Part shown: positions 2,784 through 37,501 of the stretch, in pieces
How the letters are laid out: every line of letters starts with the position of its first letter
How positions within the stretch are numbered: position 1 is the first letter of the stretch
Origin: Pseudomonadota bacterium
GTDB taxonomy: Bacteria; Bdellovibrionota; UBA1018; CAIMNF01
Assembly: GCA_027486675.1 (NCBI GenBank)
Contig: JAIXOQ010000004.1
Location: forward strand, 62,001 to 126,000
Reading direction: 5' to 3'
DNA length: 64,000 nucleotides
The notes under the pieces: model-generated
What the model was told of the DNA's origin: nothing
Seen by the model: only the letters and a program-made list of their open reading frames with translations
The model's database searches: none
Position numbers and translations under genes: made by a program

Positions 2784-2878
2784 CGCTTCGCTACGTCTTC
2801 TCACCGCTAGCAGGCAAGCGACAATTTTTCCGTCTCACTCAGAGATACCTATCCCCAATCGTGTATCTAGCGGATTTT

Positions 2879-3310
2879 ATTCCGTTTGCTGTAAGACGCA
2901 GAGTCTCTTTTTCTGAGGAAATCGCCGATTCTTACACTGAAGGTGCGTCTTTGCAGAAATTAGCGCGGCTACATCAGGTCTCAAAGAACACTGCACGTAG
3001 AACATTATAAGACCAAGGTATTGCCATTCGTCACAGTAAAGAATGGCAGGACGGATTCTTTCGCGGGACACCGCCCTATGGATTTGTAGCCATAGACGGG
3101 AAGCTCATGGAGTGTCCGCGTGAACAACAAAACCTAAAGATCATCCTGAAACTCTGGCATGCAGGCAGCACATTCGCGGACATCACGCGCCACATGAATG
3201 ACCACAAGATCCCGCCACGCCGGGCACGCGAGTGGCACTACATGACCATTAGATCGATCTTGAAATACCAAAGTGAGCAGAACCAAAAACCAAAGGAGAC
3301 TGAACTATGA
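2879..3310 (+). pseudogene. Decayed serine recombinase C-terminal region
   Basis: One reading frame runs through an HTH-like part (LQKLARLHQVSKNTARRTL), an in-frame TAA at 3008-3010, then TPPYGFVAIDGKLMECPREQ and ITRHMNDHKIPPRRAREWHY, ending SILKYQ and a Lys-rich tail. The second part matches the 'recombinase' domain that follows the catalytic domain in large serine recombinases. The catalytic N-terminal domain with its active serine is absent. Upstream sequence is the hairpin repeat. One nonsense codon and loss of the catalytic part make this a relic. A second copy of its tail lies at 1325-1426. Confidence 0.7.
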
Positions 3311-5445: not shown

Positions 5446-5513
5446 GTAGGTCCTTTGTCTGGTTTTTTTCCCAAACATGCTAGGTCTTCATGGGTGTGGG
5501 GTTCAAATATTAG

Positions 5514-5708
5514 TGGCGCGCCCGCCGCGATTCATGTCGCCCATCCATGGGCGCCACCCTCCGGGCGACACTCGTTTCACTCGCGCCGTGCAAAAATGCC
5601 ATCATGGCATTTTTGTCATGTCGGCACATCCTGTGCCTCGCCCTTAGGGGCGATGCTCATGAATTCGCATCGTGCGATTCGGCCCTCATGGCCGAATCGT
5701 CGAACACG
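5514..5708. repeat. tRNA-tail plus hairpin-array unit, copy B
   Basis: It starts with tggcgcgcccgccgcgattc (5514-5533), an exact 20-bp copy of the 3' end of the tRNA-Arg at 6225, CCA included. The hairpin array follows: gcgcccat/atgggcgc variant, a degenerate cgacac hairpin, aaaaatgcca-tca-tggcattttt, ggcac-atcct-gtgcc and gattcggcc-ctcat-ggccgaatc. It ends with tcgaacacg (5700-5708), which resumes the tRNA T-arm. It is closely similar to copy A up to the last hairpin, which has a different stem. Confidence 0.85.
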
Positions 5709-5769
5709 TTAACTTCGACGTGTTCTCGTCGATGACAGGGCACGCCAAACAGTACCTACGCCTCAGAGG

Positions 5770-5887
5770 TACCCCTCTTATTTAATACTTCTTCCCAGTG
5801 AGGCTAAAAGAGCGGAGCAGGATGCGGAGCGATAGATCCCATGGATGGATCTGCCTCACTGGGAAGAAGTATTAAATAAGAGGGGTA
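5770..5887. repeat. Long inverted-repeat element 1 (35-bp perfect arms)
   Basis: The left arm 5770-5804 and right arm 5853-5887 are perfectly complementary over 35 bp, with a 48-base loop. The loop begins taaaagagcg, contains gcgatag, and ends in a small hairpin with the apex ccatggatgg. Loop landmarks are shared with element 2, whereas arm bases differ in a paired fashion. No reading frame of note. Confidence 0.95.
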
Positions 5888-5909
5888 TTTATGGGGCATG
5901 TTTTAGAAG

Positions 5910-6020
5910 TGGCGCGCCCGCCGCGATTCATGGACGCCATCGTGGCGTCCACCCTTCGGGCGACACTCGTTACACTCGCGTCGTGCGTTTTGGCCATCAT
6001 GGCCAAAACGTCGAACACGG
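5910..6020. repeat. tRNA-tail plus hairpin-array unit, copy C
   Basis: It starts with the same exact 20-bp tRNA-Arg tail (5910-5929). The array is shorter: ggacgcca-tcg-tggcgtcc, the cgacac hairpin, then gttttggcca-tca-tggccaaaac, followed by tcgaacacgg (6011-6020). Compared with copies A and B it looks like a deletion between two cgtgc motifs that removed the aaaaatg hairpin and its neighbours. The following bases to 6081 match copy A and lead into inverted-repeat element 2. Confidence 0.85.
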
Positions 6021-6081
6021 CGCTTCGCTACGTCTTCTCACCGCCAGCAGGCGAGCGACAATTTTTCCGTCTCACTCAGAG

Positions 6082-6201
6082 ATACCTATCCCCATACTTC
6101 TTTCCCCAAGTAAGGCTAAAAGAGCGTCGCACGATGCGACGCGATAGCACCCATGGATGGGTGGCCGCCTTACTTGGGGAAAGAAGTATGGGGATAGGTA
6201 T
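6082..6201. repeat. Long inverted-repeat element 2 (35-bp perfect arms)
   Basis: Arms 6082-6116 and 6167-6201 are perfectly complementary over 35 bp; the loop is 50 bases. The loop begins taaaagagcg, carries an 8-bp hairpin gcgtcgca-cga-tgcgacgc, then gatag and a second hairpin caccca-tgga-tgggtg. Single-stranded, it would form a Y-shaped three-way junction. It ends 23 bp from the 3' end of the tRNA-Arg gene. Confidence 0.95.
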
Positions 6202-6224
6202 TTAAGAGAAAAGAAGAAAAAAAT

Positions 6225-6301
6225 TGGCGCGCCCGCCGCGATTCGAACACGGGACCCCCTGATTAGAAATCAGGTGCTCTATCCAGCTGAGCTACGGGCG
6301 C
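6225..6301 (-). tRNA. tRNA-Arg (anticodon UCU)
   Basis: A full cloverleaf can be drawn: acceptor gcgcccg/cgggcgc, D arm gctc/gagc, anticodon stem cctga/tcagg around loop tttctaa (anticodon TCT), T stem ccgtg/cgcgg with ttcgaat loop, discriminator G and an encoded CCA. Total is 77 nt. Its last 20 nt are repeated exactly at 5910 and 5514 and partly at 2511, so it is the attachment-type anchor of the island. It is divergent from the lipoprotein gene at 6375. Confidence 0.97.
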
Positions 6302-37386: not shown

Positions 37387-37501
37387 CGCATCCAATCCTT
37401 AACCCATTACAAATGCGACTAAAAGCGTATGCCAGGAAGGCATGCGCCGCTTCACGGACGAGGGGCCCGGAGCATTTGTAATGGGTTAAGGATTGGATGC
37501 G
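37387..37501. repeat. Long inverted-repeat element 3 (30-bp perfect arms)
   Basis: Arms 37387-37416 and 37472-37501 are perfectly complementary over 30 bp around a 55-base loop. The loop begins gactaaaagcg, like the ggctaaaagagcg of elements 1 and 2, and contains a 9-bp hairpin gcgtatgcc/ggcatgcgc with one G-T pair. The arms have no sequence match to elements 1 and 2. It lies between the TumE promoter and the lipoprotein gene at 37632, with no tRNA nearby. The rest of 37259-37631 holds nothing else I recognise. Confidence 0.95.

Follow-up and report, generated by a model that had tools for sequence, protein, structure and literature searches.

A dispersed family of Y-shaped palindromes with a conserved two-hairpin fork and arms that can carry inverted copies of neighboring gene ends

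The window, by which we mean the whole 64-kb stretch of DNA analyzed here, holds three Y-shaped palindromic elements, two of them close together beside a gene for tRNA-Arg(TCT). Each consists of long complementary arms enclosing a fork, and the parts of these elements and their nearest tRNA sequences are as follows.

5770 to 5804, + strand, left arm of element 1 (35 bp, perfect)
5805 to 5811, + strand, conserved single-stranded TAAAAGA of element 1
5812 to 5830, + strand, hairpin A of element 1, apical CAGGATG (pentaloop type)
5835 to 5851, + strand, hairpin B of element 1, with CANGGANG at 5840-5847
5853 to 5887, + strand, right arm of element 1
5910 to 5929, - strand, att-like 20-nt stretch copied from the 3' end of tRNA-Arg, right of element 1
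6082 to 6116, + strand, left arm of element 2 (35 bp, perfect)
6117 to 6123, + strand, conserved TAAAAGA of element 2
6124 to 6142, + strand, hairpin A of element 2, loop CGA
6148 to 6163, + strand, hairpin B of element 2, with CANGGANG at 6152-6159
6167 to 6201, + strand, right arm of element 2
6225 to 6301, - strand, tRNA-Arg(TCT), 3' end towards element 2
37387 to 37501, + strand, third copy (E7), 30-bp perfect arms, core CTAAAAGCG

The initial annotation of this DNA described elements 1 and 2 as having perfectly paired 35-bp arms, and the arms are indeed complementary at every position (35/35 for 5770-5804 with 5853-5887, and 35/35 for 6082-6116 with 6167-6201). The two elements share the loop start that it had pointed out (GGCTAAAAGAGCG, exact at 5802 in element 1 and at 6114 in element 2), as well as the GATAG word and the CCATGGATGG apex. 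When folded, element 2 gives the three-way junction proposed for it, and element 1 folds into one too, with a weaker hairpin A. Outside the perfect arms of element 2, weaker complementarity extends the pairing to 70-nt arms (6047-6116 with 6167-6236) at 79%, and within the tRNA-Arg(TCT) gene the opposite arm matches 19 of 27 aligned positions. A diverged inverted piece of the tRNA-Arg 3' end (GGGCACGCCA) lies to the left of element 1.

Other pieces of this tRNA gene are found nearby. Each of three related stretches (2513-2860, 5512-5770, and 5908-6082) starts with a directly oriented fragment of the tRNA-Arg 3' end, after which come short palindromes rich in GC; these amount to 5, 6, and 2 hairpins (stem of at least 5), respectively, against a background of 1.48 per 360 nt. 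The stretches look like tandem att-bounded remnants at tRNA-Arg, and the tRNA-Arg copies in direct orientation at 5512 and 5908 are part of a feature other than the elements. At 2773-2857, 98% identity to the left flank of element 2 continues through the first 11 nt of the arm, beyond which the sequence is unrelated and has no fork, making this a half site. Decayed reading frames that resemble, by eye, the C-terminal part of a serine recombinase adjoin tRNA-Arg fragments at 1165-1524 and about 2860-3300.

The third copy, E7, was absent from the initial annotation; it has the same fork and the same two GGA hairpins, and its sequence otherwise differs. When the window was scanned blindly for inverted repeats, only three pairs with long perfect arms emerged, and because all three contain the core, the elements are not a product of chance. 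E7 was thus detected from its arms alone, yet its loops are the same, whereas the other motif counts given below depend on models that contain the loops. Across 307 kb of fetched sequence there were 82 long inverted repeats, 81 of which lay at an element, and 81 of the 95 elements catalogued below had one, counts in which most loci had been fetched because they hold an element, so that only the third copy in the window is free of that bias.

BLAST and pattern searches of the genome from which the window comes found four further copies. The search of related genomes with a covariance model, which had been suggested as a check, was made with two models. The first, R1, built from six copies, had matches in 7 of 58 relatives. 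The second, R2, whose alignment includes two likely false rows (L066:1172 and window position 5519, minus strand), had matches in 10 of 55 genomes of the order and none in the other 45; three genomes had 34, 30, and 17 matches, another had 5, and six had 1 to 2 each. A search across the phylum gave matches at an E value of 1e-4 or better in 9 of 368 genomes. The resulting catalogue, from which two duplicate rows of locus L176 and one partial match in genome G048 were left out, comprises 95 distinct copies in ten genomes, most of which fall within three genomes of a single bacterial order: 34 in G020, 29 in G048, 17 in G000, 5 in G017, 4 in G253, 2 in G007, and one each in G002, G006, G015, and G038. 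We tentatively regard the low-scoring matches in G002, G006, G015, G038, and G253 as members of the family. One 5,035-nt contig, with the same element in the same place, occurs in two assemblies of different genera (G049:C158, locus L049, and G048:C64, locus L086). This is probably cross-binning of metagenome-assembled genomes, and the G049 copy was for that reason kept out of the 95.

An exact fork pattern searched against 84,980 species genomes retrieved 20 stretches, all but one assigned to G020, G048, or G049. A match in Hufsiella was set aside, as it lies inside a reading frame and has no palindrome. A phage or plasmid origin was also rejected: the fork pattern was unmatched in viral contigs, and plasmid and phage records returned chance-level pieces only. 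A search of the open-licence literature turned up no account of this family.

The part common to all copies is the fork, about 55 to 60 nt long and made of TAAAAG, hairpin A, and hairpin B. Measured on matches to models that themselves contain the loops, conservation of its unpaired bases is high. The T-A-A-A-A-G run is kept across aligned copies (70 to 84 of 94 to 95 at each A position); hairpin A presents NGA in 93/93 copies, as GGA in 83 and CGA in 10; and hairpin B has C in 94/95, A in 95/95, GGA in 95/95, and G in 94/95, along with two free positions, the full CANGGANG including both free positions being found in 88/95. At least two GGA triplets lie in the loop region of 94/95 copies. The claim of a structured family with conserved unpaired bases holds, and the fork with its two GGA loops is the likely target of selection.

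Loops of this kind are familiar from RNAs bound by CsrA and RsmE. For RsmE, an ANGGAX hexaloop on a stem is a high-affinity site, AGGAX lacking the N is a weaker one, and a dimer binds two sites (PMC4005645). Hairpin B, with its CANGGANG hexaloop, is of the high-affinity CsrA/RsmE type, and hairpin A, mostly a CAGGANG pentaloop, is of the weaker type, so that A(N)GGA(N) stands in a hairpin loop as it does in RNAs that bind these proteins. CsrB and RsmZ hairpins are described as having the same C-G-closed ANGGAN hexaloop, the same shorter AGGAN loop, and two sites close together (PMC4005645); unlike those RNAs, in which one small RNA gene carries many hairpins, the elements described here are dispersed in many copies and have a 30- to 70-bp stem. 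The Rfam models for CsrB, RsmY, and RsmZ matched nothing in the window at their gathering scores, and a sub-threshold RsmY match of 18 bits fell outside the element. By analogy, CsrA would be the natural candidate to bind the fork. Exactly one CsrA gene is present in 56 of 58 relatives, and the CsrA sequence is ordinary in the three genomes in which it was read. As genomes without the element have CsrA equally, its co-occurrence with the family cannot serve as a test of binding.

A promoter scan upstream of the fork strand showed no enrichment over other strands or shuffled sequence, and at most tRNA sites it runs antisense to the tRNA; both points count against the proposal that it is transcribed. 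Wobble mismatches in the arms (72 G.T versus 42 A.C) lean weakly toward the GGA strand as RNA, and those in hairpin B lean the opposite way (3 G.T versus 9 A.C).

The arms behave differently from the fork. Among copies within one genome, an arm matches its own partner at 0.96 to 1.00 identity in the two innermost windows, falling to 0.85 in the third window in G000, whereas arms of different copies match one another at 0.46 to 0.64 in those two windows and at 0.42 to 0.64 over all windows, compared to 0.37 to 0.47 for shuffled arms. Being this close to the shuffled level, the arms of different copies are different sequences rather than one conserved sequence with scattered paired changes; nor do they show the terminal inverted repeats conserved between copies by which MITEs are recognized. 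What is constrained is length, which is tight inside each genome and different between genomes. The inner stem has a median of 35 bp in G000 (range, 29 to 40; n = 17), 46 bp in G020 (quartiles, 43 to 49; range, 36 to 90; n = 34), and 62 bp in G048 (quartiles, 46 to 68), and it measures 27 to 28 bp in G017 and G253. A fixed stem length for each genome could possibly reflect an enzyme that measures or a structure selected for length.

Covariation is very strong. On six copies of the window's own genome, the described structure scored 0.479, compared to 0.177 for shuffles (none of 500 reached the observed score) and at most 0.181 for slid partners, and 68 matches scored 0.918, compared to 0.181 when shuffled. 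Only 21 of 1,702 cells in the main stem are G-U pairs. Drift via wobble intermediates is expected to leave far more G-U pairs, and their scarcity is what would be expected of copied DNA.

A source of the arm sequences is suggested where an element adjoins a gene. A tRNA gene adjoins 19 of the 95 elements, and in all 19 the 3' end of the tRNA faces the element; in 18 the tRNA is the right-hand neighbor of the fork and antisense to the fork strand, and in one (locus L164) it lies on the left. In 16 of the 18 right-side elements the arm extends by 7 to 34 nt into the tRNA, placing an inverted and truncated tRNA 3' end across the fork from the intact tRNA, as with tRNA-Met at L101 (15/15), tRNA-Val at L170 (33/34), and tRNA-Pro at L160 (20/21). 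L164 shows, by eye, the same inverted copy in mirror image. At these 16 sites and L164, one arm is thus a copy of the native sequence of the other flank, which is what a palindrome made by template switching would look like. Site-specific integration at a tRNA would be expected to repeat the tRNA 3' end directly at the far border; no such direct repeat was found, the copies in the arms being inverted. In G020, where 35 tRNA matches were counted, tRNAs adjoin 13 of the 34 elements.

Several protein genes follow this pattern. Their last codons appear inverted in the outer arm, as in ILKLSNLG* (L094), HFRFQF* (L055/L166), PVEAIGTDG* (L100), and others, and where genes converge, paired elements lie back to back, each at its own gene end. 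Outer inverted matches scoring at least 12 were found in 11/34 elements of G020, 4/17 of G000, 2/29 of G048, and 0/5 of G017, compared to 4 of 1,874 mismatched pairings in the control. The rule of gene 3' ends is not universal, as by crude reading-frame calls the right-hand neighbor points away in 11 of 24 G048 elements examined. Between the inner arm and the gene-end copy there is usually an unmatched block of 12 to 20 nt, similar in length on both sides. Simple decay does not account for this block, since it would not place a bad block between two good ones.

These findings change how the paired differences between elements 1 and 2 should be read. The initial annotation took paired change with conserved unpaired bases as the signature of selection on structure; the conserved unpaired bases and the structured family stand, but because the arms are inverted copies of the local neighbor at gene ends, paired change alone is no such signature and mostly reflects templated copying at each site. 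Such copying comes close to the palindromic duplication that the annotation itself had set against its reading.

The account that we favor, at somewhat short of an even chance, combines a stem templated at each site with a CsrA-type fork in a dispersed Y-shaped palindromic element. As RNA, the fork would hold two GGA loops side by side, an arrangement suited to one CsrA/RsmE dimer. DNA synthesis would fold back at the fork, and the flank on the gene side, that is, the 3' trailer and the 3' end of the tRNA or protein gene, would be copied inverted onto the other side. Copying would extend to a length specific to the genome, keeping the stem near perfect, and since events that overwrote the gene would themselves be eliminated, the intact gene would always appear as the donor. 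On this account the element may spread as a mobile or selfish unit. In yeast, template switches that extend arms were seen only under high transcription (PMC3820800), a dependence that would make tRNA genes favored sites. Fold-back copying leaves two features unaccounted for, the symmetric 12- to 20-nt block and the genome-specific stem length. No match to SbcD over the cut-off was found in any of the 58 genomes, so long palindromes may be tolerated in this order; as a cause specific to carriers, loss of SbcCD was rejected, because SbcD falls under the cut-off in all 58 and does not discriminate.

Two known phenomena resemble this process in part. In quasi-palindrome template switching, which is transcription dependent in yeast (PMC3820800), the arms of inverted repeats are likewise made more identical (PMC3820800, PMC7202029); it is known as a class of mutation acting on a small scale, whereas here one conserved core is joined to whole arms and gene ends of set length. 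The coding palindromes of nematomorph mitochondria are also long, perfect inverted repeats involving gene sequence, but they lie inside genes of organelle genomes, and the excerpt of that study states no common conserved loop (PMC6649704).

A mobile DNA or retroelement would explain the family in another way, with an enzyme recognizing the folded fork, a snap-back making the arms once, and the GGA loops serving as enzyme contacts rather than CsrA sites. Patchy, multicopy spread (34, 30, and 17 matches in three genomes and none in 45 of 55), the bias to gene 3' ends with an 18:1 orientation at tRNAs, and the inverted copying of the target flank are all what such an element might produce, but the arms look continuously perfected rather than made in one event, and the carriers offer no candidate enzyme. 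RVT_1, the domain expected of a retron, a group II intron, or another reverse transcriptase, is absent from G000 (95% complete), G048, G017, and G007, with 2 in G020. Target-primed insertion by reverse transcription with snap-back, attractive in its geometry, was rejected for this lack in most carriers. Of the 58 genomes, 41 have Y1 transposases; those among the matches listed for G000, G020, and G048 lie away from the elements. We consider a mobile element an unlikely, if serious, explanation. At one locus (L102:1749-2345), a reading frame judged by eye to resemble an HNH endonuclease gene lies between two inverted copies 1.4 kb apart; as a mobilizer it was rejected, being present at that locus only.

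Selection on RNA alone, with stems held paired while their arms change by compensatory mutation, would be in keeping with the very strong covariation, the conserved unpaired bases, and the stem length constrained in each genome. Under such selection, however, one would not expect arms almost completely different between copies, arms containing inverted pieces of tRNAs and coding ends, or G-U pairs in as few as 21 of 1,702 main-stem cells, and we hold a purely RNA-selected family to be improbable. Transcription terminators, or 3'-processing hairpins of tRNAs and mRNAs, would fit the position directly downstream of gene ends; still, a terminator requires neither a conserved antisense fork with GGA loops nor a copied tRNA end, and at 17 to 34 copies per genome most genes do without one, which makes this reading very doubtful indeed.

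A REP/RAYT-type repeat (REPIN or BIME) is scarcely credible, as it already fails on the features tested: the elements are, like REP, BIME, and REPIN sequences (PMC3733652), small dispersed intergenic palindromes, single or in back-to-back pairs, many at convergent gene ends, and their carriers have Y1 transposase genes, but REP repeats have stems of 5 to 13 bp and a terminal GTAG or CGTC tag (PMC3733652), whereas here the stem is specific to its site and several times longer (29 to 90 bp in G000 and G020), no such tag was noticed, the conserved part is the loop and not the ends, and among the Y1 matches listed for G000, G020, and G048 none adjoins an element as a RAYT flanked by its repeat would, the nearest Y1_Tnp in G000 being about 21 kb away.

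The account of a site-templated stem beneath a CsrA-type fork can be taken further. The family may represent a new class of element, in which the fork alone is inherited, the stem is written anew at every site, with the host gene as template and the host measuring out its length, and a CsrA-trapping Y-shaped RNA or DNA spreads along the most transcribed gene ends, a proposal that we put forward as rather unlikely in its full form.

The family is larger and stranger than elements 1 and 2 show. In it, nature links a conserved hairpin tip to the repeated, site-templated building of long palindromes, which has been known chiefly from mutation assays. As there are many replicate events in which the donor, an intact tRNA, and its copy are both known, the length, direction, and fidelity of fold-back become measurable in a wild genome. 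The elements also carry a warning for comparative RNA work, in that strong covariation, even when none of 500 shuffles reaches it, can come from DNA copying and need not imply that an RNA is under selection. Should the fork bind CsrA, a global regulator, its many copies per genome would together act as a scattered sink for it.
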